From Clostridia bacterium (GTDB lineage Bacteria; Aerophobota; Aerophobia; Aerophobales; AE-B3A), in NCBI GenBank assembly GCA_009618505.1, contig WJOQ01000247.1, positions 1-13,129 on the forward strand: a DNA stretch of 13,129 nucleotides. The letters are read 5' to 3'. Each line of letters starts with the position of its first letter. Positions within the stretch are counted from its first letter, which is position 1. The position numbers and the translations under genes are program-made. This document shows positions 1-13,129 of this stretch, piece after piece. A model generated the notes under the pieces. The model did no database searches. It had not been told where the DNA came from and saw only the letters and a program-made list of their open reading frames with translations.

Positions 1-194
1 TTGTAAAAACCAATCTTACTCATAAGCGTCTGGAGAATCGGGAGTTCTTAAATTTCGTATTAGGTAAAATCCCAATCGGGAAACTGGCTACACCTGAAGA
101 TGTTGCAGCAGCCGTGGTTTACTTAGCAAGCGATGAGGCAAAAATGGTTAACTGTGCTGTCCTCTCTGTCGATGGAGGCTGGACTGCCTGGTAG
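1..194 (+). CDS. SDR-family oxidoreductase, C-terminal part (5' end outside window)
   Basis: The frame starting at base 3 is open to the TAG at 192-194 and gives about 63 residues. They include the typical end of a classical short-chain dehydrogenase/reductase: an IP-x-G-K-L-A-T-P-E-D-V segment, then AAAVVYLASDEA, and a final VDGGWTAW. This part of the fold forms the last helix and strand of the Rossmann domain and the subunit interface. The catalytic Tyr-x-x-x-Lys and the NAD(P)-binding Gly motif lie upstream of the window, so substrate and cofactor cannot be read. The usual VNG before the last strand is VNC here. It lies 104 bp ahead of the ThuA gene on the same strand, so it probably belongs to the same sugar- or polyol-oxidation operon. 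The family call is firm; the substrate is unknown. Confidence 0.9.
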   Translation, partial: VKTNLTHKRLENREFLNFVLGKIPIGKLATPEDVAAAVVYLASDEAKMVNCAVLSVDGGWTAW

Positions 195-298
195 AGGAGA
201 ATTAGATAAAACGTGTTGTTACAAGGTTTTTTGACAGAGAAGAGTAAATAAGGTAGCCTTTGCTATCTCAACAAAAAGGAGAATAAAAAGGAGATAAA

Positions 299-1036
299 AT
301 GTCAGTAGATTCAATTAAGGTTACAGTATGGAATGAGTATCGGCATGAGAGAAAAGATCCCAATGTGGCCAGGGTTTATCCTGAAGGCATACATGAGGCT
401 ATTGCCAACCACCTGAAAAAAGAGTCAGATTTAGATATCCGCACTGCCACACTGGATCAACCAGAACATGGCTTAACTGATGAGGTATTAACTTCTACTG
501 ATGTGCTCATCTGGTGGGGACATATGGCTCATAAAGAGGTAAGTGATGTGGTGGTGGAAAGAGTATATCAGCGTATATTAGGTGGTATGGGTCTAATTGT
601 TCTACATTCGGCTCACTTCTCTAAAATTTTCAAAAAGTTGATGGGAAGCACCTGTAACTTGAAGTGGCGTGAAGTGGGGGAAAAAGAAAGACTTTGGGTG
701 GTTGAGCCTGCTCATCCAATAGCCAGAGGTATTGGTCCATATATTGAAATCAAGTCAACAGAGATGTATGGAGAACGCTTTGATATTCCTGAGCCTGACA
801 CCTTGGTCTTCATCAGTTGGTTTGAAGGGGGTGAGGTCTTCCGTAGTGGCCTTTGCTATTATCGTGGCAAGGGAAAGATTTTTTACTTTCGGCCAGGGCA
901 TGAAAGTTATCCTATTTTCTATCAGGGCGAAGTACTCAAAGTAATTAGCAATGCTGTCCGCTGGGCTGCCCCCATAGATGGACCCAAAGTGACCTTCGGC
1001 AATGTCAAGCCTCTGGAAAAAATGATCAAACGGTGA
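299..1036 (+). CDS. ThuA-like domain protein
   Basis: This 245-residue protein matches the ThuA family (trehalose-utilisation type, class I glutamine-amidotransferase-like fold). The N-terminus has [10 protein letters not shown] followed by [10 protein letters not shown]. The middle has L-I-W-W-G-H-M-A-H and V-L-H-S-A-H, and the end has G-H-E-S-Y-P-I-F-Y and V-I-S-N-A-V-R-W. Length is normal for single-domain members. There is no signal peptide, so it is probably cytoplasmic. The start is supported by AAGGAG at 289-294, five bases before the ATG; the downstream oxidoreductase has the same AAGGAGATAAAATG leader. In Sinorhizobium, ThuA works with the dehydrogenase ThuB in oxidising disaccharides to 3-keto forms. 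The neighbouring SDR and Gfo/Idh genes fit such a pathway, but the actual sugar is not shown by the sequence. Confidence 0.88.
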
Positions 1037-1059
1037 GAATGAACAAATAAGGAGATAAA

Positions 1060-2055
1060 ATGAGCGTTACCACAGTAGTGATGATAGGATGCGGCGGATT
1101 CGGACGGTATCACTTGGGAAATATCTTGAAGATGAGAGATTCAACAAAGGTAGTAGCTATTGTGGAGCCGTCCAAAGAAATGATAGAGCGCACCTCGGAG
1201 GTGTTTAAGAAATTTGATATTCCTCTACCTCCCGTTTATGCCCGCCTTGATGAATTTCTCAAATCTGGGCCAAAGACAGAGACAGCATTCATCATAACTC
1301 CCCATAATATGCATTTTCCACAAACAAAAGCTTGTCTGGAGGCAGGAATAGATGTTCTTTTAGAGAAACCAATGGTGATGAATGAAAAAGAGGCGCTTGA
1401 TTTGATTGACGCTCGTAATAAAACAGACCGACTTTTGGTAGTGGCATTCCCGGGAAGTCTTTCTTCTGCTATTCATAAGGCAAAAGAGCTTATAGCTGAA
1501 AATGCTATTGGCCAGGTAGTGCAAGTAGCAGCACTTATTTATCAGGACTGGAAGGAATCACAAAAAGGAAAGTGGCGTCAAGTTCCTCAAATTTCCGGCG
1601 GGGGCTTTCTCTTTGATAGCGGCAGTCACATGATAAATACAGTAGTTGATATTCTCAATGATGATATAGATATAGTATTCGCCATCCAGGACAAAAAGGA
1701 TACTCCCGTTGATATCTGCTCTATTATTACTGCCAAAACAACAAGGGGAATCCTGATTAACCTAACAGGGGCAGGATTTTCTATCGGATGTGATTCAGAA
1801 ATATTCATCGTTGGGACAAAAGGAATTATTCGCACAGGTGCCTGGGGAGAAAGACTTGAAATGAGAAGAGAGGGAGAAAAGAACCTGTCACCTGTAAAAT
1901 TTGGTAAATCAAAAGGGGTGTGGGAGCAATTTCTCAAAGTCCGTTCTGGAGAACTAGAGAATCCCTGTCCGCCTGAAGTTGGCTTGCGATTTGCCAGACT
2001 TATGGATATGATAAATGCTTCTGCTGACAACGAAAAGGTAGTGATAAAGAAGTAG
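1060..2055 (+). CDS. Gfo/Idh/MocA family NAD(P)-dependent oxidoreductase
   Basis: A complete 331-residue dehydrogenase of the glucose-fructose oxidoreductase / inositol dehydrogenase / MocA family. The N-terminal Rossmann domain carries the dinucleotide loop GCGGFG at residues 10-15, after a hydrophobic first strand. The family Glu-Lys-Pro motif is at residues 102-104 (LLEKP), where the Lys is normally catalytic. The C-terminal domain has GGGFLFDSGSHMIN at about 181-194; its Asp187 and His191 match the usual active-site Asp and His. It probably oxidises a sugar or inositol hydroxyl with NAD(P)+ in the cytoplasm. The gene starts 23 bp after the ThuA stop with ribosome site AAGGAG, so the two are almost certainly co-transcribed. 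Together with ThuA and the SDR it suggests keto-sugar metabolism. Substrate cannot be assigned. Confidence 0.92.
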   Translation: MSVTTVVMIGCGGFGRYHLGNILKMRDSTKVVAIVEPSKEMIERTSEVFKKFDIPLPPVYARLDEFLKSGPKTETAFIITPHNMHFPQTKACLEAGIDVLLEKPMVMNEKEALDLIDARNKTDRLLVVAFPGSLSSAIHKAKELIAENAIGQVVQVAALIYQDWKESQKGKWRQVPQISGGGFLFDSGSHMINTVVDILNDDIDIVFAIQDKKDTPVDICSIITAKTTRGILINLTGAGFSIGCDSEIFIVGTKGIIRTGAWGERLEMRREGEKNLSPVKFGKSKGVWEQFLKVRSGELENPCPPEVGLRFARLMDMINASADNEKVVIKK

Positions 2056-2130
2056 AATAAGGTATCATTCCTATCACCCAAAATAGAAGAGATATTCGAG
2101 GAGGGAAAAGAGAAGGGTGATTAGATTATC

Positions 2131-2715
2131 TCATAATGCGAAAGCAAAGCCTAGTCCAAAGAAAGAACTAGCATAAAGGTCATCAGGTACTCCTGGCGCC
2201 AGGTAAAGACTGGGCCAGGTTAACCCCAGCAGGATTTCCATAGCCAATCTCTCCTTAAGAAACCAGGTATAGCCTATATTGCCCATAAGAAGCCCTGATA
2301 GTCCGGTGACTGAACCTGGCCAACCAAGCGCCTCAAGATTAAATACATTAACGATGCTTACAGAACCTCCGCACCACAACCCGGCCAGGCTGGACCAGCC
2401 CATGTATCGCCTAAACCCTATTCCCAGACCAATAATAGAATCTTTTGACTTTTCATAAGACTCCCCTCGGCCAAAGATTAACTGCTTGGTGAGGTATAGA
2501 TTTGGACCTAGTAAGCTCTGGTATGCTGTATTAAAGTAACTTACATCACCATTTACCGTATCTATATCGTGATAGGCAAAAGAAACAAATTCGGAAGGAA
2601 GAGAAGATAAAGAAGAGCTTTTTCTGAGAGTGCCAGAAAAAACAGGCTTCTGACTAAAAACCAGCAACAAACAAAAAAATAAAAATACAATCCCTTTTGT
2701 TTTTTTGTGTTTCAT
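2131..2715 (-). CDS. Small exported protein, possible outer-membrane beta-barrel
   Basis: I do not recognise a named family. With the start at 2715 the protein has 194 residues: a basic N-terminus (MKHKKTKG), a hydrophobic core (IVFLFFCLLLVFS) and a likely signal-peptidase site near F-S-G-T. The mature part is rich in Gly, Ser and aromatic residues in short alternating stretches, such as IIGLGIGFRRYMGW and GLSGLLMGNIGYTWFL. It ends in FFGLGFAFAL, which resembles the last strand of small outer-membrane barrels. An ATG at 2739 adds eight residues, but it has no ribosome site, whereas AAGGAAAG lies just upstream of 2715. It has its own promoter at 2795-2823 and converges with the oxidoreductase operon. 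Export is well supported; the barrel reading is inference. Confidence 0.7.
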   Translation of the reverse strand: MKHKKTKGIVFLFFCLLLVFSQKPVFSGTLRKSSSLSSLPSEFVSFAYHDIDTVNGDVSYFNTAYQSLLGPNLYLTKQLIFGRGESYEKSKDSIIGLGIGFRRYMGWSSLAGLWCGGSVSIVNVFNLEALGWPGSVTGLSGLLMGNIGYTWFLKERLAMEILLGLTWPSLYLAPGVPDDLYASSFFGLGFAFAL

Positions 2716-2794
2716 AAATACTTTCCTTTTCTCGAGCATCGTAACTCTAGTATTTGTGAAAAGGTATTACAGGTAAGCCAGCAAACAGTATTTA

Positions 2795-2823
2795 AGTATA
2801 TACTGTCCTACTGAATAAGTCAA
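2795..2823 (-). promoter_or_regulatory. Sigma70-like promoter of the exported-protein gene, with overlapping palindrome
   Basis: Reading the - strand, TTGACT (2823-2818), a 17-base spacer and TATACT (2800-2795) form a near-consensus promoter about 80 bases before the ATG at 2715. An inverted repeat, ACAGTAT with ATACTGT eight bases apart (2785-2806), covers the -10 box and likely start site, where a repressor could bind. No regulator is visible nearby. Confidence 0.65.
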
Positions 2824-2889
2824 ACTTTTCCTAAGGTCCAAAGATTTGGCAACAGTTTTTTTGCATTAGGAATTTATATCAAGCATCTC

Positions 2890-2917
2890 TTGATTTTTGA
2901 AACAAATTTGTTAGAAT
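2890..2917 (+). promoter_or_regulatory. Probable original promoter of tRNA-Ala, now separated by the transposon
   Basis: TTGATT (2890-2895), a 16-base spacer and TAGAAT (2912-2917) lie on the + strand just left of the transposon. If the transposon and one TAAAAAAT copy are removed in thought, the likely start near 2924 is only about 26 bases before the first base of tRNA-Ala. That is a normal tRNA leader. The promoter match is moderate; the link to the tRNA is inference from the rebuilt sequence. Confidence 0.45.
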
Positions 2918-2930
2918 ATAAGGAATGAAA

Positions 2931-2938
2931 TAAAAAAT
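2931..2938. repeat. Target-site duplication, left copy (TAAAAAAT)
   Basis: TAAAAAAT immediately precedes the left terminal repeat and is repeated exactly right after the right terminal repeat at 6274-6281. Eight bases is the duplication length known for IS1595-family elements, so this marks a single insertion event. Confidence 0.9.
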
Positions 2939-2974
2939 CGGAATTATACCCTTGACAAACTTAAATAATGTGCT
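2939..2974 (+). repeat. Left terminal inverted repeat of the transposon (36 bp)
   Basis: It begins CGGAATTATACCC and ends ATAATGTGCT, and is the exact reverse complement of 6238-6273. It contains the -35 box (TTGACA, 2952-2957) of the transposase promoter, and its last base is the first base of the -10 box. Confidence 0.92.
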
Positions 2975-2979
2975 ATAAT
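2952..2979 (+). promoter_or_regulatory. Transposase promoter lying across the terminal repeat
   Basis: TTGACA (2952-2957), 16 bases, TATAAT (2974-2979): both boxes are perfect consensus. The ribosome site AAGGAGG follows at 2996-3002. Since the -35 lies inside the transposase binding end, bound transposase could block its own transcription; that regulatory effect is inference. Confidence 0.8.
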
Positions 2980-3524
2980 ATATATAGACATTATCAAGGA
3001 GGTTGTCAACTGAATTTACTAAAAGCAGGAAAGATGACCGAAAAACAGGCAAGAAGATATCTGGAAAAAGTCCGTTGGCCAAATGGCCCCGTATGTCCTC
3101 ATTGCGGTAACGGGAAGAAGGCTTATTTTCTAAAGGGCAAGTCTACCAGACCGGGTGTATATAACTGTGCTGTATGTAAAAGACAGTTCACCGTCACAAT
3201 CGGAACGGTCATGGAAGATACACATCTACCGTTGCGTACGTGGTTGATGGCTTTTTCCCTGATGCAGTCAGCCAAGAAGGGCATATCAGCCCTACAATTA
3301 CAGAGAGACCTCAATATTGGCTCATACAAAACTGCCTGGAGAATGCTCAGACTCATTCGAGAGACAATGGGAAATGTCAAGCACGGCAAAACCTTTCAGG
3401 CAATAGTGGAGATAGACGAAACTTATATTGGTGGTAAGCCAAGAAAATCTAACAGAAAAGATGACAGGGATAAGCATAATAACAGAGGCCGAGGAACAAA
3501 GAAGAGCCCCATCATAGGAATAGT

Positions 3525-3530
3525 TGACAG
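3525..3530. repeat. 6-bp target duplication of the nested insertion (TGACAG)
   Basis: TGACAG occurs here and again at 3765-3770, on the two sides of the insert that breaks the transposase. Only one copy is needed for an unbroken reading frame, which identifies it as a target-site duplication. Confidence 0.8.
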
Positions 3531-3764
3531 CTAGCTTTTGCAGGAAAACGATGGTATTCGCTGACATCTTTCTCTTAACATTGGATAGAGGCCATTCTTG
3601 AGCTTTCACATAAATGATAAGAAAGTGCCCATAGGTTATCTGAGAAATCTGTGATTTTAGACTGAATCTTTTCTTCATCTCTTGTAAACCGCCAACAATG
3701 AAGCTCTCATAAATTCGAGATTGTCTGATAGGATTTATATAATTAATCTCGTGCAAAATTTGGG
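3531..3764. mobile_element. Nested 234-bp MITE-like insertion in the transposase gene
   Basis: The insert lies between two TGACAG copies. Its ends are imperfectly inverted: CTAGCTTTTGCAGG on the left and, read inward from the right, CCCAAATTTTGCACG, which share TTTTGCA. On the + strand it has an immediate stop. On the - strand it stays open along its whole length in one frame, but I recognise no protein there. Size, weak inverted ends and the duplication fit a miniature element moved by another transposase. Its parent family is not identifiable by eye. Confidence 0.72.
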
Positions 3765-4154
3765 TGACAGAGAAAAGAAAAAAGTTTATGCGAAAGTATC
3801 ACTACCTAATAAAGAAGGGAAGAAACTATCAGGCAACCAGATTCTGGGAATACTTAATCAGGTATGCAAGAGGAAGAGCACCATAATAACTGACGAGTTC
3901 ACTGGATACAATATTCTTCGAAGAACAAAGCATGTTCACCTGGTAATTGACCACACTAAAGGCTTTGTGGATGATTTTGTTCATACTAACAATGTAGAGT
4001 CCTTCTGGGCGATCCTCAAGCGTGGGGTCTATGGAATCTACCACCATGTCTCGGTGAAGTATCTGCAGGCTTACGTGAACGAGTTTTGCTTCAGGTTCAA
4101 CAATAAGGACAACGAAGATATGTTTGACCTGATGCTGAGCCAGGCGGTGATAGC

Positions 4155-4193
4155 ATGAAGAACACACTATATTACGGCGATAACCTAGATATA
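4155..4193 (+). pseudogene. Truncated start of an adenine-type DNA methyltransferase gene
   Basis: From the ATG at 4155 the frame reads MKNTLYYGDNLDI. This is the highly typical beginning of site-specific DNA methyltransferases of the DNA-methylase N4/N6 type, in which the GDNL(D/E) region precedes the catalytic D/N-P-P-F/Y motif. After about 13 codons homology stops and the frame runs into unrelated sequence antisense to the protease fragment, ending at the TAA at 4242-4244. The ATG overlaps the transposase stop as ATGA, so the complete gene was probably translationally coupled to the transposase in the parent element. It cannot be functional here. The family call rests on a short stretch. 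Confidence 0.6.
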
Positions 4194-4196
4194 TTC

Positions 4197-4873
4197 TTAT
4201 TGTGGTTGCCTGGGTGGTTGTTGTGGAGGAAGTTGAGGTATTAACTGGACAACTTTTTGCTCGGCTAATCTTCGAGCCCAACTAACCCCCCTGGAGTTTT
4301 CAAAAAGTTTAACAGCAGCAGTTCCGTCAAAATAAATCTCTATAGAGCAATATAGTTCCCAAAGTTTTTTTCTTAAGTCAGGCAAATTTCTCAAGTCTGT
4401 TATTATTAATCCAAACTTTTTTGCTTTCCGGATTCCTATTGGTCTACCATGGGATAAATTTTCTTTGTGGCTTGAAAGTTTCCCTGCAATTTGTTTTGCC
4501 TTTTTGTCTTTATCTGGCGACCCTTTAAACATGTGTTGTTCAAGCCAGGTTTGAGTCAGAGTTCTAGCTAAGGTTTGGGCATTCCTGCAGGTTTCAAAAG
4601 TATGAAGGTCGTATTTTTGTAGCATTGGAAGATAAGCGGGAAGAGATTCTATCCCCTCTTTTTTGAGCAACTCGCGAAGGCGCTCAAAAGCATCGAGAAT
4701 TTCCTCGACAGGTGCTGAGGTCACTCCTTGTGGGCAGGCATCATTATTTGAGGGTCGATGGGGCCTAGAGTTGAGCGGTCGTCCATCAAGATTTCATCAC
4801 CAGATAAAGCTAACATAGTGGCCGCGTTGTAGGCAGTGTGTGGGATTAAAAAGCGAATGTGGTCAAAGTTCTC
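4197..4873 (-). pseudogene. Fragment of an SDH_sah (ClpP/crotonase-fold) serine protease gene, frameshifted
   Basis: Two adjoining - strand frames together resemble the serine dehydrogenase proteinase family (SDH_sah). Frame one (4873 down to the stop at 4721) reads IRFLIPHTAYNAATMLALSG, then a D-D-R-S-T-L-G-P-I-D-P-Q segment, the family's oligomer/active-site region. Frame two (4724 down to 4197) continues with VTSAPVEEILDAFERL, AYLPMLQKYDLH and W-L-E-Q-H-M-F-K-G, then S-S-H-K-E-N-L-S-H-G, and a Pro/Gln-rich tail. A one-base slip near 4725 splits them. The N-terminal part of the family, including the H-T-P-G-G-like segment, is missing, and an in-frame stop lies at 4874-4876. The motif usually A-x-S-A-x-T has Asn in place of the Ser. 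Such proteins are linked to membrane-proximal proteolysis and turn up as cargo; this copy looks dead. Confidence 0.68.
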
Positions 4874-4974
4874 TCATATTCATCTTGAGAGATATGAAAT
4901 TTTCGCATAATTTCTTCAAACTCTGGAGTTCGGGCCTTATAGTGATTTATGGCCTCTAAAAGATCTTTTTGCAT
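4846..4974 (-). pseudogene. Orphan N-terminus of an unknown small protein (42 aa), probably truncated
   Basis: A 42-codon frame starts at 4974 with an excellent ribosome site (GGAGG seven bases upstream) and reads MQKDLLEAINHYKARTPEFE, continuing with E-I-M-R-K-F-H-I-S-Q-D-E-Y-E-R-T-L and a short T-T-F-A-F tail. The first 37 residues look like a genuine charged helical protein start. The last five lie in the region that encodes the protease fragment in another frame. I therefore read it as a real gene start fused by deletion to the protease remnant near 4874-4880. I do not recognise the family. Confidence 0.45.
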
Positions 4975-5075
4975 TATATCCTCCATTATGTTAGTCAAGT
5001 GCTTCTTGGTAGTAAACATTTCAATGCCTTCTTACGAGGTTTTGGTCCTCTTTTTATTTCTAAAAAGAATTAGTC

Positions 5076-5366
5076 CTAACTATAAACTGCATTAGTAAAA
5101 GCATAGTTTTTCTCATAAACAAGTTCTTTTTCCATATCTCCTCTCGCCGAAGTATAAATCGAGTGCTCCAAGGCCCTTTCAGAAGACAGCCTCTCTCTTC
5201 CCTCAGCTCTCCGAACTTCCAAATGAAGGTCAATCGCAACCCTAAGTTCTCCTAAAGCTTCTTCCTCAGTTTCTCCAAAAGCTGAACAACCTAACAACTC
5301 AGGAGCTACTGCAATAAAACCCTCGTCATCCTCGCTATAAAAAACAACCTTGATATAATTACGCAT
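5076..5366 (-). CDS. hicB: HicB-family antitoxin
   Basis: This 96-residue protein has the HicB fold signature: I-K-V-V-F-Y-S-E-D-D-E-G-F-I-A-V-A-P-E-L-L-G-C-S-A-F-G-E-T-E-E-E-A-L, then a helix A-I-D-L-H-L-E (partial RNase H-like domain). It is expected to bind and neutralise HicA. The C-terminal third (residues about 60-96) is short and shows no obvious ribbon-helix-helix or helix-turn-helix, so it may lack the usual DNA-binding domain and autoregulate weakly. It starts 3 bp after hicA, and its GAGGG-type ribosome site overlaps the hicA end, consistent with coupled translation. The order toxin first, antitoxin second is the usual hicAB order. Confidence 0.85.
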   Translation of the reverse strand: MRNYIKVVFYSEDDEGFIAVAPELLGCSAFGETEEEALGELRVAIDLHLEVRRAEGRERLSSERALEHSIYTSARGDMEKELVYEKNYAFTNAVYS

Positions 5367-5369
5367 CCC

Positions 5370-5618
5370 TCACTCCCTCTCCAATAATTTATACTTATCT
5401 ATCACATCTAAGAATTGGTCAACTTGATAAGGCTTCGCCTTCCCTCGTACTTCCTGAAAATCAAGCAATTCAATTATCCCGGCCCTTCCATACTTCACAT
5501 GACTCCCTGTCCGCCCTTTAGGACTAAACCCAAAAGCTTCAGCCGCCCCAAGAAGCTCCCGAAACCTAAGATTTTTACGCCTAATTGCCAACGAATCATA
5601 AAGCTCCCGCCTATTCAT
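5370..5618 (-). CDS. hicA: HicA-family mRNA interferase toxin
   Basis: An 82-residue protein with the HicA double-stranded-RNA-binding-like fold: L-R-F-R-E-L-L-G-A-A-E-A-F-G-F, then G-R-T-G-S-H-V-K-Y. His40 in the G-S-H motif is the family's catalytic residue, and it is present, so the toxin looks active. HicA cleaves mRNA on translating or free messages and is held in check by the downstream HicB. The C-terminus K-P-Y-Q-V-D-Q-F-L-D-V-I resembles the family's last strand and helix. It lies 20 bp after the DUF3467-like gene on the same strand. Its own ribosome site is weak, which fits low toxin expression. The pair probably stabilises the transposon by addiction; that role is inference. Confidence 0.85.
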   Translation of the reverse strand: MNRRELYDSLAIRRKNLRFRELLGAAEAFGFSPKGRTGSHVKYGRAGIIELLDFQEVRGKAKPYQVDQFLDVIDKYKLLERE

Positions 5619-5638
5619 TTACCAACCATCACTAAAAT

Positions 5639-5872
5639 CTATTTCTTCTCTTCTACTCTCTTTTGGGGCTTAACATATTTCTCTATATATGAACCAACAT
5701 TTTTCTCAATCGCATCTCTAAACCTCATAACCTGTTGAGCAGTCATATAGACTCGCACTAAAGGTTTACCCTTTTCGATAGATACCATATCTTCGCTCAG
5801 TTGATAAAAATCAAAATAAAATTCATTCTCTGTATGCATTATCCTCTGAGCATTTGAATATATCACTTCCAT
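5639..5872 (-). CDS. DUF3467-like small protein
   Basis: Starting at 5872 this is a 77-residue protein: MEVIYSNAQRIMHTENEF, then Y-F-D-F-Y-Q-L-S, a V-R-V-Y-M-T-A-Q-Q-V-M-R-F-R-D-A-I-E-K-N segment and a charged Lys/Glu tail. The pattern of Y-x-N-x-x-x-I-x-H-x-x-x-E-F-x-x-D-F, then R-V-x-M-(S/T), then a long helix, matches the DUF3467 family, whose function is unknown. The start was chosen because AGGAGG lies six bases before this ATG; a longer frame to 5935 adds 21 residues without a ribosome site. It is the first gene of the transcript that continues into hicA and hicB. Its link to the toxin-antitoxin pair is unexplained. Confidence 0.75.
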   Translation of the reverse strand: MEVIYSNAQRIMHTENEFYFDFYQLSEDMVSIEKGKPLVRVYMTAQQVMRFRDAIEKNVGSYIEKYVKPQKRVEEKK

Positions 5873-5959
5873 CTCACGCCTCCTCCTCAAAAAAACTCCA
5901 TTTTCTTCTATTAGCCCTCGCGCTACGATTAACAAAAAAAATCAAGCTAAGTAATTAAC

Positions 5960-5987
5960 TTGACAAATCAAAAAATCCAAGTATGAT
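5960..5987 (+). promoter_or_regulatory. Possible rightward promoter inside the transposon
   Basis: TTGACA (5960-5965), 16 bases, TATGAT (5982-5987) point rightward. Transcription would start near 5994, run through the hairpin at 6037-6079 and oppose the leftward hic-operon promoter. No ORF of note follows, so any product would be an RNA. Confidence 0.4.
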
Positions 5988-6036
5988 GATATAGGTAAGA
6001 AATGGTCTTTTGCACAATCCTCAAATTCAGACCTTG

Positions 6037-6079
6037 GTAGTATTTCCCCATGCCTTCTCCCCCCGGGAAACCGTACTAC
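6037..6079. other. Long hairpin with a three-base bulge in the hic-operon leader
   Basis: GTAGTA-TTTCCC (6037-6048) pairs with GGGAAA (6065-6070) and TACTAC (6074-6079). This makes a 12-bp stem interrupted only by CCG (6071-6073), with a 16-base loop. It lies in the roughly 250-base leader between the hic-operon promoter and the DUF3467-like gene, and also in the path of the possible rightward promoter. It has no U-run typical of a terminator. I do not recognise the RNA family. The rest of 5936-6237 holds no gene I can support. Confidence 0.55.
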
Positions 6080-6129
6080 ACAAAAGGATTAAATGAGAGT
6101 AGGAAAAGAATAAGAGTTCTCCAGCATCT

Positions 6130-6157
6130 AGTATAGAACAAAATGTAGAATTGTCAA
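6130..6157 (-). promoter_or_regulatory. Promoter of the DUF3467-hicA-hicB operon
   Basis: Reading leftward, TTGACA (6157-6152), a 16-base spacer and TATACT (6135-6130) form a strong promoter. Transcription from near 6123 gives a leader of about 250 bases before the ATG at 5872, unusually long for a toxin-antitoxin operon. Confidence 0.7.
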
Positions 6158-6237
6158 GACTTCTTTGTGCATACATATACAGAACTTTACTCTTATGTCA
6201 AGTGAATACCTATGTAAATTTTTTCTATTTTTTGCGG

Positions 6238-6273
6238 AGCACATTATTTAAGTTTGTCAAGGGTATAATTCCG
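6238..6273 (-). repeat. Right terminal inverted repeat of the transposon (36 bp)
   Basis: Exact reverse complement of 2939-2974. It ends with GGGTATAATTCCG, so a perfect -10-like TATAAT (6264-6269) points outward to the tRNA gene, 24 bases before it. I see no good -35 box at the right distance. Confidence 0.92.
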
Positions 6274-6281
6274 TAAAAAAT
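6274..6281. repeat. Target-site duplication, right copy (TAAAAAAT)
   Basis: Exact repeat of 2931-2938, directly next to the right terminal repeat; see the left copy. Confidence 0.9.
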
Positions 6282-6292
6282 TGGCAACGATT

Positions 6293-6368
6293 GGGGATGT
6301 AGCTCAGCGGGTAGAGCGCTTGCTTCGCATGCAAGAGGCCGGGGGTTCGAATCCCCCCATCTCCACCA
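6293..6368 (+). tRNA. tRNA-Ala (anticodon CGC)
   Basis: A complete 76-base cloverleaf. The acceptor stem GGGGATG pairs with CATCTCC and contains the G3:U70 wobble that identifies alanine tRNAs. The D-arm has AGCTCAGCGGGTAGAG. The anticodon stem-loop CTTGC-TTCGCAT-GCAAG gives anticodon CGC, reading GCG. The T-arm is GGGGG-TTCGAAT-CCCCC. Discriminator A and an encoded CCA end the gene. It starts 19 bp outside the transposon end, which probably cut it off from its own promoter at 2890-2917. Whether it is still well expressed depends on readthrough or on the outward TATAAT of the transposon end. It converges with the purF-like gene, whose stop is 33 bp away. Confidence 0.97.
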
Positions 6369-6401
6369 TAACTCGTATCTCGTTGTTCAGATTCATCCTG
6401 T

Positions 6402-7733
6402 CTATTGCATTACTGGCTCACCAAAGCAGGCTAAACACAGGTCTGATCTCGTTAGTTTAGAATTTTTTGTCACTGCATCTACAAAGTCGTCTAAGGTATT
6501 GTATTTTAGAGAATCCGCACCAATGTATTTTCTCAGGCCTTCTCTTGTAAAATTCTTTGTTGCCAGTTCTTCGTACGACCTTGTAGCTCTATCATAGGGA
6601 CATGGCGCTTCTAATGGAGGACAAGAAATTCTCACATGCACTTCCCTTGCTCCAGCCTCTTTTAGCTCTCTGACTTTGTTCCTTATCTGGGTTCCCCTGA
6701 CAATAGAATCATCAACCAAAATTATCCTTTTTCCTTTTATGACTTCATTAATTGTTGAGAGTTTTCTTCTTGCTATTTCATCTCTAGTTTTTTGATCAGG
6801 TGGGGTATAACTTCTTCCCAGGAATCTATCTATAAGGAAAACATATTTATAGATTAAGCCAGATTCCTCCTGATAACCCAGTGCATGACCAATGCCTGAA
6901 AGTGGGACTGCTGCAACTAAATCAGCTCCTACGTTGTCGTTCCTTGCTAAAGCTCTCCCCGCGTTATTTCTTGCTGTAATAATTGGAATTCCCTCCATGA
7001 CAGAATCTATGCTAGCTGTATAACCCCATTCAAATATACAATGGGCCTTTTTTTTGCTTTCTAATCTCTTGACCGTGCTGAAGCCATCCTTGTTTATTAA
7101 AACAATCTCTCCCGCCTCTAGATCCCTTATGTTTGCATTCAATCCGGTATAATCAAGTGCACGCGATTCAGAAGCGACCGCATATTTTCCATCATTTTCA
7201 CCTATGATAAGTGGCTTACGTGCAAAGGGGTCTCTGGCAGCATATACCCCATCTTCAGTTAACACTACTAAAGAAAAAGAACCTTTGACTTTTTCTGCTA
7301 ATCGTGAAATACCTTCCAGGAAATCTTTTCCTTGCGCCACTAATTTTGTCAAAATCTCAACATCGTGGTCTGTAAAAAAGGAATGGCCTTGGCTCCATAA
7401 TTCTTCTCTTAGCTCCTGGGCATTGATTATGTTCCCATTATATGCCAAGGCGAATTTGCCTAATCTACAATCTGCGAAAAAAGGCTGGGGATCTTCTGCA
7501 CTTGCATGACCTATCCCTAGATTCCCCTCAAGTTTTTCTAATAGTTCTTTCGTGAAACTCTGTTCGACATGTTGCGGCTTGGTAATTAGTTGTAAACTGT
7601 TTTTATTTTTATTATATGTAGCTATACCACCATATTGTTCGCCGCGGTGTTGCAAGGCATGGATTCCCATTTTTATGCAATAACTACAACTCATCGGAGA
7701 ATAAACCCCAAAAACACCACAATTTTCACGCAT
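6402..7733 (-). CDS. purF: Divergent PurF-type amidophosphoribosyltransferase
   Basis: A 443-residue protein with the PurF layout: N-terminal Ntn-type glutaminase, C-terminal phosphoribosyltransferase. PurF makes phosphoribosylamine from PRPP and glutamine, the first step of purine synthesis. Cys5 (E-N-C-G-V-F-G) would be the nucleophile after removal of a four-residue leader. A-L-Q-H-R-G follows at 26-31 and A-Y-N-G-N at 97-101. The PRPP loop I-I-L-V-D-D-S-I-V-R-G-T is at 337-348. Cys232, Cys378, Cys433 and Cys436 match the iron-sulfur ligands of the Bacillus-type enzyme. Several normally strict motifs differ: Q-E-S after QHRG is E-Q-Y, the R-Y-S-T segment after G-H is replaced by A-S-A-E-D, N-R-Y-V-G-R-T is D-R-F-L-G-R-S, and the G-I-D-T segment is missing. 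It may be a specialised PurF or a paralogue with another acceptor. It is transcribed from its own promoter, divergent to dnaX. Confidence 0.8.
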   Translation of the reverse strand: MRENCGVFGVYSPMSCSYCIKMGIHALQHRGEQYGGIATYNKNKNSLQLITKPQHVEQSFTKELLEKLEGNLGIGHASAEDPQPFFADCRLGKFALAYNGNIINAQELREELWSQGHSFFTDHDVEILTKLVAQGKDFLEGISRLAEKVKGSFSLVVLTEDGVYAARDPFARKPLIIGENDGKYAVASESRALDYTGLNANIRDLEAGEIVLINKDGFSTVKRLESKKKAHCIFEWGYTASIDSVMEGIPIITARNNAGRALARNDNVGADLVAAVPLSGIGHALGYQEESGLIYKYVFLIDRFLGRSYTPPDQKTRDEIARRKLSTINEVIKGKRIILVDDSIVRGTQIRNKVRELKEAGAREVHVRISCPPLEAPCPYDRATRSYEELATKNFTREGLRKYIGADSLKYNTLDDFVDAVTKNSKLTRSDLCLACFGEPVMQ

Positions 7734-7847
7734 TTCTACCCCCCAATCTTATATTGGCTATCAATTATATTTATCGGACCTACCATAGCAGTGCACAGAC
7801 TCTATGTGTCTTTGGTTGCAGTTCCTATGGGTACGTTTGGTACATTT

Positions 7848-7876
7848 AATCTACTCCAGACCTCAGCATTTGTCAA
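7848..7876 (-). promoter_or_regulatory. Promoter of the purF-like gene
   Basis: Reading leftward, TTGACA (7876-7871), 17 bases, TAGATT (7853-7848). The leader of about 107 bases before the ATG at 7733 shows no purine- or PRPP-riboswitch motif that I can recognise. The -35 box forms one arm of an inverted repeat (TGTCAATT, five bases, AATTGACA; 7871-7891) whose other arm is the dnaX -35 box. Confidence 0.65.
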
Positions 7877-7885
7877 TTTTTCTAA

Positions 7886-7913
7886 TTGACATTCGGCACT
7901 TCTAAGGTAAAAT
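7886..7913 (+). promoter_or_regulatory. Promoter of the dnaX-ybaB-recR operon
   Basis: TTGACA (7886-7891), 16 bases, TAAAAT (7908-7913), with a likely start near 7920 and a short leader. Ribosome site AAGGGAG at 7929-7935 precedes the ATG at 7943 by seven bases. It is back-to-back with the purF-like promoter. Confidence 0.7.
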
Positions 7914-7942
7914 GTAAGAGATACGGAAAAGGGAGCTAAGTT

Positions 7943-9607
7943 ATGGCCTATCAAGTCTTATCCAGAAAGTGGCGACCTCAGCTATTTGAGGAAATTGTAG
8001 GACAAGACCATATAGTACGCACTTTGAAAAATGCCATATCTCTGGAACGTATAGCTCATGCTTATCTATTTGCCGGAATGAGAGGAACAGGAAAAACCTC
8101 CACGGCACGAATTCTTGCCAAAGCCTTAAACTGCAAAAATGGCCCCACAATCTCTCCCTGCAATCAATGTGACAACTGTCAGGAAATAATGAGGAGTGAG
8201 TCATTGGATGTTCTGGAAATAGATGGCGCATCTAACCGAGGAATTGATGAGATAAGGGAGTTGCGGGAAAAAGCAAGATTTTCTCCGGCTAAGGCCAGGT
8301 TCAAAATCTATATTATAGATGAGGTTCATATGCTCACCAATCCTGCTTTTAATGCTCTTCTTAAAATTCTGGAAGAGCCACCTCCTTATATAATTTTTAT
8401 ATTTGCTACCACTGATCCTCACAAGCTTCTTCCTACTATTATTTCTCGCTGCCAGAGATTTGACTTAAGAAAAATACCTACTCCTAAGATACTGACTCGC
8501 TTACAGCAAATAGTAGAAAAAGAGAAAATTTCCACAGACAAAGAAGCTCTTACTCTAATTGCTGAAGAAGCAGAAAACAGTATGCGAGATGGAGAAAAAA
8601 TTCTTGACCAAACTGTTTCTTATGCTGAGGGAAAAATAACGGAAAAAGATGTAGTTGACATTCTGGGAATAGTGGAAAAAAGATATATATTCCAACTTAC
8701 ACAAAATATATTAGAAAAAAATCCTTTGGCCAATATAGAATTAATTAATCAATTACTCGAGGAAGGAAGAGATCCAAACTGGCTTATTAGAGGGTGGCGA
8801 AAGTGGTTCAGGGATTTAGTAATTCTTAAAATGGGAGGAAATAGTTTTCTATTTCTTTCTCCTTCAGAAAAAAAAGAAGCAGAAAAACAATCTTCTCTCT
8901 TTACCCTAGCCCAACTAATTCATTTCATGGATTTACTTTCGCAGACCAGACAGAAACTTGCCTTTTCTTCCCAGCCACAAATTGACCTGGAATTGCTGCT
9001 AGTAGAACTTTCTTCTGATTTTGACATAGACACCTCAAATTCCAGGGAACCGGAATTAATGAAAATTTATCAAAAGATACTAAACCTGGAACAAAGGTTG
9101 AGCTTAAAATCCTCTCTCCCTGAAACAGAAAAAAAAGAAAAACCTAAAGTTAAAACTTATTTGGCAAAAGAAGAGAAGGAGAAAGAGCCCACCCTTAAAG
9201 AGACAAGCGCAGTAAAACAAGAAGTGGAAGAGAAAGAAAGCAATGACAATGAATTTTTTGAAAAGTGGCCTTTAATAGTAAAGGAGATAGGTAAAAAGAA
9301 AAAGACTCTGGGTACCTGGCTACAAAAGGCTACTCTCTTAAAGGTAGAAAAAGACTTAGCTACCCTGAGCTTAAAAAATGGATTTCACCAGGAAACCTTA
9401 ACCAAAAATAGCAATCTATACCTGATAGAGGAGACAATCAAAGAGTTTTTATCTTACCCTTTTCATCTTAAATATATTGTAGAAAAAGGTAAAGAAAAAG
9501 ACAAACCGAAAAAGACATCTTCCTCTAGTTCAGAGTGGAGTGAGCTTATAACTAAAGCTATGGATGTTTTTGAAGGAGAAATAGTAGAGGGAAAAACAAG
9601 GAGGTAA
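7943..9607 (+). CDS. dnaX: DNA polymerase III subunit gamma/tau
   Basis: A 554-residue clamp-loader ATPase that loads the sliding clamp at replication forks. The Walker A loop GMRGTGKT is at residues 45-52, the zinc-binding cysteines are 64, 73, 76 and 79, the Walker B D-E-V-H is at 126-129, and the sensor S-R-C is at 168-170. Domain III runs to about residue 365. A Lys/Glu-rich linker (about 390-440) follows, then a C-terminal tau-specific domain. A run of eight adenines at 9129-9136 (codons 396-398), just after domain III, could allow slippage. A shift of -1 would add about 27 codons before a stop, and +1 about 5, giving a gamma-like short form; this is inference. It is the first gene of the operon and ends 5 bp before ybaB. 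Confidence 0.97.
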   Translation: MAYQVLSRKWRPQLFEEIVGQDHIVRTLKNAISLERIAHAYLFAGMRGTGKTSTARILAKALNCKNGPTISPCNQCDNCQEIMRSESLDVLEIDGASNRGIDEIRELREKARFSPAKARFKIYIIDEVHMLTNPAFNALLKILEEPPPYIIFIFATTDPHKLLPTIISRCQRFDLRKIPTPKILTRLQQIVEKEKISTDKEALTLIAEEAENSMRDGEKILDQTVSYAEGKITEKDVVDILGIVEKRYIFQLTQNILEKNPLANIELINQLLEEGRDPNWLIRGWRKWFRDLVILKMGGNSFLFLSPSEKKEAEKQSSLFTLAQLIHFMDLLSQTRQKLAFSSQPQIDLELLLVELSSDFDIDTSNSREPELMKIYQKILNLEQRLSLKSSLPETEKKEKPKVKTYLAKEEKEKEPTLKETSAVKQEVEEKESNDNEFFEKWPLIVKEIGKKKKTLGTWLQKATLLKVEKDLATLSLKNGFHQETLTKNSNLYLIEETIKEFLSYPFHLKYIVEKGKEKDKPKKTSSSSSEWSELITKAMDVFEGEIVEGKTRR

Positions 9608-9612
9608 TCTTA

Positions 9613-9945
9613 ATGATAATGGATATGGCAAAGCTATTGAGACAATTTCAAAAAATGCAGGGAGATATGAAAAAAATACAGAAAGAGATAGCCAAAGAAA
9701 AAGTCACTGGCTCCAGTGGGGGAGGAATGGTCGAGGTAACTATAAACGGAAAGCTGGAAGTCGTTGATATAAAAATAGAGAAAAAGCTAATGGAAGAAAA
9801 AGATAAAGAAATGTTAGAGGACCTTGTTCTAGCAGCAGTAAATAAAGCGCTCCTCAAAGCACAGCAGTTAACCAAGGAAAGAATGGGGCGACTTGCAGGA
9901 GGGCTAAATATTCCTGGAATAGATATTCCTGGGATGCTCGGTTAA
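9613..9945 (+). CDS. ybaB: YbaB/EbfC family nucleoid-associated protein
   Basis: A 110-residue protein with the typical layout: a coiled N-terminal helix (M-A-K-L-L-R-Q-F-Q-K-M-Q-G-D-M-K-K-I-Q-K-E-I), a Gly-rich turn G-S-S-G-G-G-M-V-E-V-T-I-N-G-K, a V-V-D-I-K-I strand, and a second long helix. It ends in G-L-N-I-P-G-I-D-I-P-G-M, the usual family tail. Members form tweezer-like dimers that bind DNA. The ribosome site AAGGAGG overlaps the dnaX stop, so translation is likely coupled. The dnaX-ybaB-recR order is conserved in many bacteria. A second ATG two codons in (M-D-M-A-K) could be the real start. Confidence 0.96.
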   Translation: MIMDMAKLLRQFQKMQGDMKKIQKEIAKEKVTGSSGGGMVEVTINGKLEVVDIKIEKKLMEEKDKEMLEDLVLAAVNKALLKAQQLTKERMGRLAGGLNIPGIDIPGMLG

Positions 9946-9951
9946 ACTTCT

Positions 9952-10554
9952 ATGTATTCAGTAAATTCTGTAAATAGATTAATCGGGGAATTCAATAAAC
10001 TCCCTGGAATAGGTGAGAAGACTGCTCAACGGCTCTCTTTTTTCATACTGAAGCAACCCAAGGAAATAGCTCTTAGGCTGGCCGAATCCATTAAGGAAGT
10101 TAAGGAGAAGGTAAGATACTGTTCTATCTGTGCAAACTTTACCGAGGAAGACCCCTGCCGCATCTGCCAGGATAAAAGAAGAGACAGAGCTATCCTCTGT
10201 GTGGTAGAAGGCCCAGAAGATGTGTCTCTCTTAGAGAGAATGGGCAAATTCAAGGGAGTATACCATGTATTGGGAGGAGCTATTTCTCCCCTTAAGGGGG
10301 TAAGACCTGAAGATATTAATATTAAGAGCCTTTTAAAAAGAATTAAACAAGAGGAGATTAGAGAAGTTATCCTGGCTACCGATCCCAATGTAGAGGGAGA
10401 AACAACGGCTATTTATGTCTCTAAATTACTTTTCCCCTTCAAAATAAAGATTACTCGCCTCGCCTACGGTCTTCCTGCCGGGGGAGATCTGGAATTTGCT
10501 GACGAAGTAACCCTCTGGGAATCTTTAGATGGAAGACGGGAAGTGCATCCTTAA
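9952..10554 (+). CDS. recR: Recombination mediator RecR
   Basis: A 200-residue, full-length RecR, the ring protein that with RecO loads RecA on SSB-coated gaps. The helix-hairpin-helix L-P-G-I-G-E-K-T-A-Q-R-L is at residues 17-28. The zinc finger uses Cys57, Cys60, Cys69 and Cys72. The Toprim domain has E-G-P-E-D (86-90) and A-T-D-P-N-V-E-G-E-T-T-A (142-153). The C-terminal Y-G-L-P-A-G-G-D-L-E-F-A-D-E-V-T-L segment closes the ring. The gene starts 6 bp after ybaB with only a weak ribosome site, so translation probably depends on coupling. It ends the operon; I see no clear hairpin-plus-U terminator in the 39 bp before the convergent methyltransferase gene. Confidence 0.97.
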   Translation: MYSVNSVNRLIGEFNKLPGIGEKTAQRLSFFILKQPKEIALRLAESIKEVKEKVRYCSICANFTEEDPCRICQDKRRDRAILCVVEGPEDVSLLERMGKFKGVYHVLGGAISPLKGVRPEDINIKSLLKRIKQEEIREVILATDPNVEGETTAIYVSKLLFPFKIKITRLAYGLPAGGDLEFADEVTLWESLDGRREVHP

Positions 10555-10593
10555 TAAATGGATGGAAGATTCTACGGGTATAAATTTTTCTCA

Positions 10594-12057
10594 CTAACTT
10601 TTGGTAATCCTTTTTAAAACCCTTCTTTGAGCTTCTCCAGCAAACTTATCTAACTCTTCACACAAATCTGAACAAAGATATTGAGGGTGATATTCTTTTA
10701 GAATGCGCCTTGCTTCTTCATTAGCCTTCTGCCTCATAGATATTTTCCCCTCAGCTTCCCAATTTAACCACTTATTTCTATTTGTTAGTCGTGGAAACCA
10801 TTCCACCTTACGAAAATTTTTGAGAGTGTGTTCATGGGTAAGGAAATTCCCTCCCGGCCCCACCTCTTTTATGACATCCATGGCCAGTGTTTCTGAGTTC
10901 ACTTCCATACCCTGAAGTATGCGAAAAGTAGCTCCCAGAATCTCATTATCAATTACACATTGTTCATAACTGGCAAGAAGCATCTGCTCGATCATACCTA
11001 TAGAAAGATGGATAAAATTAACCCCGGATAAAGCACAGGACAAAACCTGCAAGGCTCTTTCATAGCCTGCTTGGGCATCGGGAATTTTGGCATCAATCCC
11101 TGTCCCACCCTGGAAGGGAAGATTATAGAAATGAGCAACCTGGGCTGTAGCTGCATGTAAAAGACATGTTTCCGGAGCTGCACCTGAGTAATTGCCAGTC
11201 TTCATATCCATAATTCCTGAGGCAATAGCATAAATACAGGGTGTACCTGAATTTACCAGTTGAGCTAAAGTTATACCACAGAGAACATTGGCATTTTGTT
11301 CCACCAAAGTTCCAGCAAGGGTAACCGGGCTGGTTGCGCCCGGTTGAGCATCAACCTCCACATATACAGGTATACCACACTTTGCTGATTCCATTAGCAC
11401 TTCCGCCATTTGCGCTGGATGAGTAAGAGGACTAACCATGCAAACGACCTCTGTAAAAATAGGCATTTCCTTCACCTCTCTCTTGCTTCCTGAAATCAAA
11501 GAAGCCATTTCAACTTGATCTTGCACGTCTCTTGCATCCTCAGCTTGAGAATAATAGTTCCGAGAAGTGTTCTTCATCACCGTGGCGAAAAGTCGCCGGC
11601 AAAAACCCGGCTGAGGTATATCCTGGGGATTGACAATTCCATGCATTATATGAAGATTCTCCAGGGCATCCTGAAGCCTGGTAAGATCAACTAAATCCTG
11701 TAAAGTCGCTGGACGACGTTTCCCATCTAAATCAAGGACGAATAAAGCCGATGAGCCTCCTATGGTATATACATTTTGAGTATTTACCTGAATATTGAAC
11801 TCTGGCTTCCTTCCATAAAGGGTGAACCTGGAAGGAGCACTCTGAAGAGCTTTCCTTAATACATATTCAGGAATTGTAACTATCCTTTTATCAAAATCAA
11901 CATTGCAGCCACAATCAGCCATTAGCTCCAGAGCTGGCCTATACTCAACTCTTACTCCAATATCCCCTAGAACCTCCAAGGTTGCTTCATGAATATGCTT
12001 GATTTGATCATCAGTAAGAACCTTATATTGTCCACCTTTTAGTTCTCGAATGGCCAT
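10594..12057 (-). CDS. MttB-superfamily (non-pyrrolysine) methylamine/betaine:corrinoid methyltransferase
   Basis: A 487-residue protein of the trimethylamine methyltransferase superfamily (COG5598). N-terminus: L-T-D-D-Q-I-K-H-I-H-E-A-T-L-E-V-L-G-D-I-G-V-R-V. Barrel segments include Y-T-I-G-G-S-S-A-L and Y-S-G-A-A-P-E-T. The C-terminal signature is S-Y-E-Q-C-V-I-D-N-E-I-L-G, followed by D-V-I-K-E-V-G-P-G-G-N-F-L-T-H-E-H-T. The frame has no internal TAG, so it lacks the pyrrolysine of true MttB and belongs with the MtgB/MtpB-like enzymes. Those demethylate glycine betaine, proline betaine or other quaternary amines and pass the methyl group to a corrinoid protein. No corrinoid protein gene is visible here. 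Ribosome site GGAG precedes the ATG by five bases. It lies downstream of a sugar isomerase on the same strand. Substrate is unknown. Confidence 0.88.
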   Translation of the reverse strand: MAIRELKGGQYKVLTDDQIKHIHEATLEVLGDIGVRVEYRPALELMADCGCNVDFDKRIVTIPEYVLRKALQSAPSRFTLYGRKPEFNIQVNTQNVYTIGGSSALFVLDLDGKRRPATLQDLVDLTRLQDALENLHIMHGIVNPQDIPQPGFCRRLFATVMKNTSRNYYSQAEDARDVQDQVEMASLISGSKREVKEMPIFTEVVCMVSPLTHPAQMAEVLMESAKCGIPVYVEVDAQPGATSPVTLAGTLVEQNANVLCGITLAQLVNSGTPCIYAIASGIMDMKTGNYSGAAPETCLLHAATAQVAHFYNLPFQGGTGIDAKIPDAQAGYERALQVLSCALSGVNFIHLSIGMIEQMLLASYEQCVIDNEILGATFRILQGMEVNSETLAMDVIKEVGPGGNFLTHEHTLKNFRKVEWFPRLTNRNKWLNWEAEGKISMRQKANEEARRILKEYHPQYLCSDLCEELDKFAGEAQRRVLKRITKS

Positions 12058-12141
12058 TTTTACTCCTTACTATATAACCTTTCTTTTGCAAATGATGCTC
12101 AAAACCTTTGTTTTGGATAGATAATTCCTGAGCCCTCTAAC

Positions 12142-12204
12142 TCAGATAATAAAAGAGTCAATACCAGCTATTTCCCATATAGAGTTGTTAATCCCTAGTT
12201 TCAT
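12142..12204 (-). pseudogene. Remnant start of a second sugar-phosphate isomerase/epimerase gene
   Basis: In the 176-bp gap between the isomerase and methyltransferase genes, a strong ribosome site (AAGGAGG) is followed by the ATG at 12204 and MKLGINNSIWEIAGID, then S-F-I-I and TGA at 12142-12144. The MKLGINNSxWE start is typical of xylose-isomerase-like TIM-barrel proteins, in which a much longer protein should follow. The start lies 29 bp after the stop of the complete isomerase, as expected for the next operon gene. I read it as a gene reduced by deletion to its first 20 codons. A functional 20-residue peptide cannot be excluded. Confidence 0.5.
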
Positions 12205-12233
12205 TCTCTTGTCCTCCTTTTTGCTACTACTAA

Positions 12234-13129
12234 TCAGCTCAAATTTAAGACTTTGTTTTGAAGGTAGGAGAAAATCTTGGGAGTGCTCCTTTCTTTCATT
12301 AATTGAAAAACGTGGGAGGAGTCGATATTTTCCAACAGATGCTCAATGTTTCTCATAAATTCAATACTGGTAGTGAATACCTCTACCGGATTTAGATTTT
12401 TGGGGGAGACATCCATGGCGATCCAGCCCTGGTAGTCATATTCTCTCAAATAGAAGAGTAGTTCCAGGTAATCCCAAAAGTTGACGAACCCGGGAATTAA
12501 ATCCCAGTCCCAATTTCTAAAATTATCGTTGATGTGTAGGTAGAATAGCTTACCTTTGCTAACCAGGAGCGATAGAGATTCAGCCGGATTTTCACCTGCC
12601 TGAAGGGCATGACCTACGTCGAGAGTTATCCCAACATTTTCCCTATCGACCTCATGGCAAAAGTGTAGACTTTTGCCTACTGTCCCTATAATAGTGCGAA
12701 CCACTGGTTCACTCATTTTGTATTCCAGGCTAACTTTAATATCTGACCTATAGTCGGCCACCCTTTTTATTGCCTCAATCAAATTTTTCCAAGTCTCTTG
12801 ATAGTTTACCTGGAAGGGATAATCATGGCCATCATTTAAGAGGCACACGGTAATTAACTTGCAATCCAATTGGTAAGCCCTGTCCATTGCCTGCTCTAGA
12901 ACCTCCTCTGCCTCCCTCCTTGTCTTTTCTGAGTGGGAAGTCAGGGACCCATATGTCCATCGAGGTTCAGCCTTTAAGTTCACGTTAACTGCAGAAACTC
13001 CTAATTTATACTGGCCTATTAAGCTTCTTAACCTCTCAAAGTCACTGAAATCTGATGGGTAAATTACCTCCATCCCTTGGAGTCCCTCTATTTTGGAGGC
13101 TAGCTCGAACTTTTCTTCCAGGGTCCTCT
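12234..13129 (-). CDS. Sugar-phosphate isomerase/epimerase (xylose-isomerase-like TIM barrel), 5' end outside window
   Basis: The frame stays open to the right edge. The first ATG in the window (13073) is preceded in frame by T-L-E-E-K-F-E-L-A-S-K-I-E-G-L-Q-G, typical first-helix sequence of the family, so the true start lies beyond 13129. At least 297 codons are visible. Metal-site candidates of the AP-endonuclease-2/xylose-isomerase-like fold are the Glu in S-L-E-Y-K, Asp and His in T-L-D-V-G-H, and His in Y-L-H-I-N-D-N. The fourth position, often Glu, reads M-D-V-S. It probably isomerises or epimerises a sugar or keto-sugar in the cytoplasm with a divalent metal. Downstream lie a dead isomerase remnant and the methyltransferase gene, all on the same strand. 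Confidence 0.85.
   Translation of the reverse strand, partial: RTLEEKFELASKIEGLQGMEVIYPSDFSDFERLRSLIGQYKLGVSAVNVNLKAEPRWTYGSLTSHSEKTRREAEEVLEQAMDRAYQLDCKLITVCLLNDGHDYPFQVNYQETWKNLIEAIKRVADYRSDIKVSLEYKMSEPVVRTIIGTVGKSLHFCHEVDRENVGITLDVGHALQAGENPAESLSLLVSKGKLFYLHINDNFRNWDWDLIPGFVNFWDYLELLFYLREYDYQGWIAMDVSPKNLNPVEVFTTSIEFMRNIEHLLENIDSSHVFQLMKERSTPKIFSYLQNKVLNLS

Follow-up and report, generated by a model that had tools for sequence, protein, structure and literature searches.

How the genes just ahead of a tRNA-Ala(CGC) gene came to lie between two perfect inverted repeats is the question raised by the 13,129-nucleotide stretch of DNA analyzed here, hereafter the window (a Clostridia bacterium assembly placed by GTDB in the Aerophobota; GenBank GCA_009618505.1, contig WJOQ01000247.1, positions 1 to 13,129). 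The unit concerned, 2939-6273 (3335 bp), is bounded by inverted ends agreeing at 36/36 positions and by an 8/8 target duplication, and encloses a broken transposase of the IS1595 family together with genes unrelated to transposition. We assign it to IS1595 because of its transposase domain, ends, and target duplication, and to the transporter insertion sequences (tIS) of that family because of its passengers. It is thus a decayed, non-autonomous IS1595 tIS, a kind already described, unusual in what it carries and in how perfect its ends are, and we consider it likely that it moved between its two 36-bp ends to the site before the tRNA gene.

Ends, target duplication, and insertion site

The left (2939-2974, + strand) and right (6238-6273, - strand) terminal inverted repeats are 36 nt long and, checked letter by letter, 100% complementary, and no other inverted pair in the window's listing is as long (27 nt at 74% for the runner-up). 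The left repeat opens with ~18 nt, CGGAATTATACCCTTGAC, similar to the termini of other IS1595 elements. The 8-bp direct repeat TAAAAAAT abuts both tips (2931-2938 and 6274-6281). IS1595 elements characteristically duplicate 8 bp of target, and this is consistent with what is seen in 12/16 of the related elements compared below. Since TAAAAAAT consists of A and T only, the duplication is weak taken alone, random agreement having a probability of 3e-5 for two 8-mers of the window and of 0.5% for two all-AT 8-mers; what is decisive is that it sits exactly at the two outer edges of a 36/36 repeat. The original prediction, made from the letters alone, of an IS1595-family element with exact 36/36 ends and an 8/8 target duplication flush outside them is therefore borne out in each of these respects, the family assignment being further supported by the transposase domains. 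With all 44 paired positions (36 of the ends and 8 of the target) unchanged, we calculate that the pairs have diverged by less than ~7% since the jump (at 95%), a bound that leaves the order of transposase breakage and jump undated.

The tRNA-Ala(CGC) gene starts at 6293, with 11 bp between it and the right copy of TAAAAAAT, which ends at 6281. Beyond the left end, at 2890-2917, lies a promoter-like TTGATT-16-TAGAAT (9/12, a chance-level match) that is possibly the tRNA gene's own, and from which the insertion separates that gene by 3.3 kb. The right end presents an outward-facing TATAAT (6264-6269) 23 bp before the tRNA gene, which might replace the displaced promoter.

A broken transposase and its passengers

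Two forward-strand frames contain parts of an IS1595 transposase, both scoring above Pfam cut-offs: 2968-3534 with Zn_ribbon_IS1595 (61.2 bits) and the start of DDE_Tnp_IS1595, and 3721-4158 with DDE_Tnp_IS1595 (86.1 bits). Within these, the N-terminal piece (3010-3534), with the zinc ribbon and the first catalytic Asp, runs to a premature stop inside a 235-bp insert (3530-3764) flanked by copies of TGACA at 3525-3529 and 3765-3769 (3525-3769 with both repeats), whereas the C-terminal piece (3769-4158) holds the rest of the DDE domain. The insert splits the transposase between the first and second catalytic residues, which, judging by the translations, we take to be an Asp in the N-terminal piece followed by an Asp and a Glu in the C-terminal one. 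The uninterrupted 302-residue relative P0002, which is 94% identical over the N-terminal piece, continues across the break point without loss. Position 3010, at which the N-terminal piece starts, reads CTG; M or V is the first residue at this place in 21/24 close relatives, the other three being annotated from a later Met. Split by 235 bp and with CTG for a start codon, the gene does not encode a working transposase, just as had been predicted. The disruption is probably no single read error because the cluster with the disrupted N-terminal piece has three member sequences on two contigs (the longest of 41 kb); these may be assemblies of one sample. The ends of the insert fit poorly as inverted repeats (~11/16 by eye) and its 71-residue antisense frame has no Pfam match; a coding or Rfam element was considered for the insert and dropped, no Pfam or Rfam match being found and no family named.

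Ahead of the transposase lies a promoter-like TTGACA-16-TATAAT, its second box preceded by TG (2952-2979, +; 12/12); the -35 box and spacer fall within the left terminal repeat. A comparable site, TTGACA-16-TATACT (6130-6157, -; 11/12), is directed toward the DUF3467, HicA-like, and HicB-like passengers.

The passenger region (4197-5935) lies between the transposase and the right end and reads in the opposite direction. Its outermost gene (5639-5935, -) codes for a DUF3467 protein (35.7 bits versus a Pfam cut-off of 25), the likely start of which is an internal Met. Next come a HicA-like toxin with a GSH motif (5370-5618, -; HicA, 19.4 versus 27 bits) and a HicB-like antitoxin (5076-5366, -; HicB, 21.4 versus 27 bits; UPF0150, 25.6 versus 27.3 bits), the HicB match spanning only residues 10-58 of 96. 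The HicA-like frame retrieves 12 plasmid records up to an E-value of 0.01, including an annotated HicA of Thiolapillus (40.6% identity, 3e-4) and one of Acinetobacter (32.9%, 1e-3), and has in its GSH motif what is presumably a HicA trait. A cargo of HicAB and DUF3467 had been predicted, and of this the DUF3467 component stands above its cut-off, whereas the HicAB pair is likely but falls below the cut-offs.

Further inward, a 57-residue open frame of unassigned kind (4846-5019, -) overlaps the remnant of an SDH-type (ClpP-like) serine protease (4197-4873, -), which is distributed over two frames and has lost its N-terminus. The 50-residue piece at 4724-4873 matches SDH_protease (40.3 bits versus a cut-off of 31.3; positions 121-164 of the 286 of the PF01972 profile). 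The piece at 4197-4724 is 80% identical to P0242 and 82% to P0243, with 10 matching proteins, the window's own included, among 183 candidates. The Ser within SAATM of P0243, presumably the nucleophile, is replaced by Asn in the remnant, and a full protease domain with the nucleophile Ser is lacking. Fragments of the SDH_sah protease named in the original prediction are accordingly present, but as a truncated remnant in two frames. Its methyltransferase passenger did not survive scrutiny: all that is left is a 14-codon stub, MKNTLYYGDNLDIF (4155-4196, +), whose start codon overlaps the transposase stop (ATGA) and which ends at the stop codon of the protease. None of the catalytic or cofactor motifs of a DNA methyltransferase is found in these 14 codons. 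The stub is a probable methyltransferase N-terminus on weak evidence, as its only echo in phage records is one phage methylase (two records) at an E-value of 10; it matches barstar by chance in the PDB (E-value 1.4) and nothing among plasmids.

None of five cargo frames matched PADLOC, and no Rfam match up to an E-value of 1 was found in 4190-6292. A candidate structured RNA at 5990-6110 was rejected, as it folds no better than shuffles (z 0.46 and 0.66 on the two strands); for a trimmed 96-nt piece of it z was -1.37, with 18/200 shuffles equally good.

Kin, perfect ends, and the origin of the load

We compared the unit with 16 related elements for which both ends could be placed. Left out were L004, L005, L006, L067, L068, and L071, whose ends are not credible, and L069 (12/16 end bases, 8/8 duplication); the L065 element recurs in L064 and L066, and L070 is the L007 element. 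The comparators have the outer end sequence CGGAATTAT-CCCTTGAC or one near it, and the ends of the unit are of the same type. An 8/8 duplication is absent in L009, L010, L039, and L040, and that of L037 is a run of A. The comparators measure between 1543 and 3510 bp, and passengers are found in the longer of them. L002, L007, L015, L039, and L040, like the excluded L069, are simple, with a length of 1.54-1.76 kb and a single small frame or a few. In one genome there are nine equal-score transposase matches, three of which, compared directly, share a bounded ~1.93-kb unit with the same end type. In a tree of 52 rows (built without L005, L009, and chosen proteins of 240 residues or fewer [P0013]), the N-terminal piece pairs with P0002 (97/56, not starred) in a starred set of three rows (100/98), these and other close relatives making up 24 rows (98/75), while the 15 rows of elements readable as DNA stand apart (100/100). 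The comparator transposases are at most 56% identical to P0002, against 72% or more in the close clade.

Among the comparators, three carry clear type II restriction-modification pairs with both proteins above Pfam cut-offs, namely a C5-methylase with an NgoBV-type nuclease (L001:2508-5550), an N4/N6-methylase with a CfrBI-type nuclease (L010:281-3790), and a C5-methylase with an NgoFVII-type nuclease (L038:5938-9015). The three pairs are unrelated, and the transposases are 88-93% identical to one another; L001 and L010 come from one Bacteroidetes metagenome-assembled genome and L038 from an IMG/VR contig. A possible fourth case is L037 (2541-5005), with a methylase-like frame, matched weakly by an Alw26-type NCBIfam family (0.0035; 16 bits versus a cut-off of 353.5) and by nothing in Pfam, and a second frame without a match. 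The scan of cargo frames left out L007, L012, L014, and L065, and found no restriction-modification family in the one or two frames each of L002, L003, L008, L009, L013, L015, L039, and L040; other hits were an HNH nuclease frame (L040) and, below cut-off, a nuclease-like stretch (L009). The trend is suggestive, no more, though L001, L010, and L038 suggest that a backbone of this kind swaps defense modules. If general, three restriction-modification cassettes on transposases 88-93% identical would partly explain the spread of such systems. As a separate observation, L008 (9902-13234; Treponema) has a BrnT-like stretch (33.8 bits versus a cut-off of 34.5) and an OrfB_IS605/TnpB-like gene inside.

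For the window's unit, we envisage as the likely course of events that a transposase of this clade bound both 36-bp ends and inserted the DNA 11 bp upstream of tRNA-Ala(CGC), an 8-bp staggered cut giving the TAAAAAAT duplication, as the anatomy shows, and the whole 3335 bp presumably moving in one step. The DUF3467 protein, the HicA-like and HicB-like proteins, the small frame, and the broken SDH protease would perhaps be expressed from a promoter of their own (6157-6130), and the methyltransferase-like stub at the transposase stop would be the trace of an earlier passenger, now deleted. The 235-bp insert with its TGACA repeats cut the transposase in two, and this, like the decay of the cargo, may have come after the jump or before it. 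The element should be immobile now unless a related transposase acts on its ends, and HicAB, if working, may penalize its loss.

Several results weigh against this course of events. Neither a copy with the same cargo, intact or broken, nor an empty site was found in the genome and viral contigs scanned: there were 0 matches to a 20-nt core of the end in genome contigs, and 0 in viral contigs both to an 18-nt core and to the joined flanks with a single copy of the target. Movement as one unit therefore has to be argued from the anatomy of the locus. The promoter-like sites in 2850-6380 are not above chance in number (11 versus 7.9 in shuffles, standard deviation 2.8), and only those scoring 11/12 and 12/12 carry weight. 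As for the passengers, the HicA-like and HicB-like proteins, both below their Pfam cut-offs, were matched by no NCBIfam family; in the PDB the former found no match and the latter only 2yzt (E-value 0.14) and the HicB structure 6g1c (E-value 0.76), and single-sequence models of the two were too poor to use (predicted local distance difference test scores of 49.6 and 44.9).

No close kin of the transposase turned up in the contigs and genome samples searched. Compared with plasmids, the whole unit matched a Treponema IS1595 transposase over 125 bases and nothing else. A transposase profile found 36 loci in genome contigs (53% at best among long matches, with short fragments reaching 70% over 27 residues) and six in viral contigs (at most 52%), where the L038 transposase found only L038 itself. 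In even samples of three phyla, P0002 had matches at E <= 1e-60 in 2/395, 2/198, and 3/247 genomes, the center genome included, none of them close, and in a phylum of three genomes in the center genome only. The L038 transposase was matched in 4/396 genomes of one order, the center included, the other three at 45-47%, none close. P0002 had no phage match at E <= 1e-40, and at E <= 1e-60 two plasmid records, both under 50%.

Could the load have arrived after the element? A cargo-free short IS1595 copy might have landed first, the protease-HicAB-DUF3467 block being inserted later and never traveling with it. This would leave the same target duplication and ends; the relatives include several simple elements no longer than 1.54-1.76 kb; and the cargo, oriented opposite to the transposase, directly adjoins the stub. 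The longest contig, moreover, is shorter than 2.0 kb in 10/24 of the closest transposase clusters (P0002-P0025) and longer in 14, which may point to a short repeated insertion sequence. Yet the resolved relatives commonly hold passengers between their ends, and ends matching at 36/36, unlike those of the 16 comparators, are easier to obtain with a new right end than by filling an old insertion sequence; we regard later filling as rather unlikely.

The ends themselves invite a further proposal. Left and right ends match at 24-31/36 positions (ungapped) in all 16 comparators versus 36/36 in the unit, where the identity reaches the first base of TATAAT and so takes in two parts of the transposase promoter, the -35 box and spacer, that are of no use at a right end. 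Since perfect 36/36 ends occur in none of the 16 comparators, the right end of the unit may have originated as a copy of the left, with the genes between them captured: an insertion sequence that had lost its right end would have borrowed the left end of another copy lying in inverted orientation beyond adjacent genes, and the two left ends would have mobilized the genes in between. The abrupt stop of the element's own 3' part in the 14-codon stub is in line with this. On the other side, the comparators are distant, their transposases being at most 56% identical to P0002, and 36/36 ends may be normal in the close clade (72% or more) or may have been equalized by conversion. We accordingly hold the capture proposal to be doubtful, and equally tentative is the broader idea that IS1595-type elements are a swappable vehicle for addiction and defense modules, gaining cargo by replacing the right end with a copied left one.

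Less probable still is the scenario of the original prediction, in which breakage of transposase and cargo preceded the jump and the unit was moved in trans by an intact relative. The clade does include uninterrupted transposases, and the two ends are unchanged relative to each other, but unchanged ends are equally expected from a jump in cis, the break looks recent because the pieces are otherwise open, and a jump followed by breakage accounts for everything without a helper, so that movement in trans is possible but not required.

Elsewhere in the window, a PurF-like protein neighbors the element and has six matches at 78-99% among the 7999 candidates with the most shared words that were scored; its best match with an organism name, at 56%, points to an Omnitrophota-like or deeper lineage. 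A 202-residue frame at 2131-2739 (-) has no Pfam or NCBIfam match. A tRNA and PYLIS_3 are the only Rfam families reaching gathering score in the whole window; the latter, the pyrrolysine insertion sequence of mttB, lies at 11001-11100 (-; 44.8 bits versus a cut-off of 38). The mttB-like frame of 487 residues that contains it has no internal stop codon and is therefore read without pyrrolysine.

Comparison with known systems

Reviews report tIS with passenger genes in the IS1595 family, ISNha5 carrying a regulator (PMC11891212) and further cases being MTnSag1/tISSag10 and tISCpe8 (PMC5704250). The unit is like tISCpe8, MTnSag1/tISSag10, and ISNha5 in having an IS1595 transposase and passengers between inverted ends. 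Of those named, ISNha5 brings along a regulator and tISCpe8 lincomycin resistance, and there are also mobilizable elements among them, whereas the present unit has HicAB-like genes, DUF3467, the remnant of a protease, and a transposase that no longer works. The titles and abstract openings listed in literature searches mentioned no IS1595 element with a restriction-modification or HicAB cargo.

The unit resembles L001, L010, and L038 in its related transposase (theirs being 53-54% identical to P0002), its related ends, and the location of its cargo between transposase and right end; they differ in carrying a type II restriction-modification pair, in ends matching at 26-30/36, and in an unbroken transposase. 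Its unusually perfect ends suggest a testable route from a simple insertion sequence to a gene-carrying transposon. In the manner of HicAB type II toxin-antitoxin systems, the HicA-like gene is followed by an adjoining HicB-like one, the frames being 3 bp apart, whereas, unlike curated HicAB, the pair scores below the profile cut-offs. With it, a toxin-antitoxin-like load is added to the list of IS1595 passengers.

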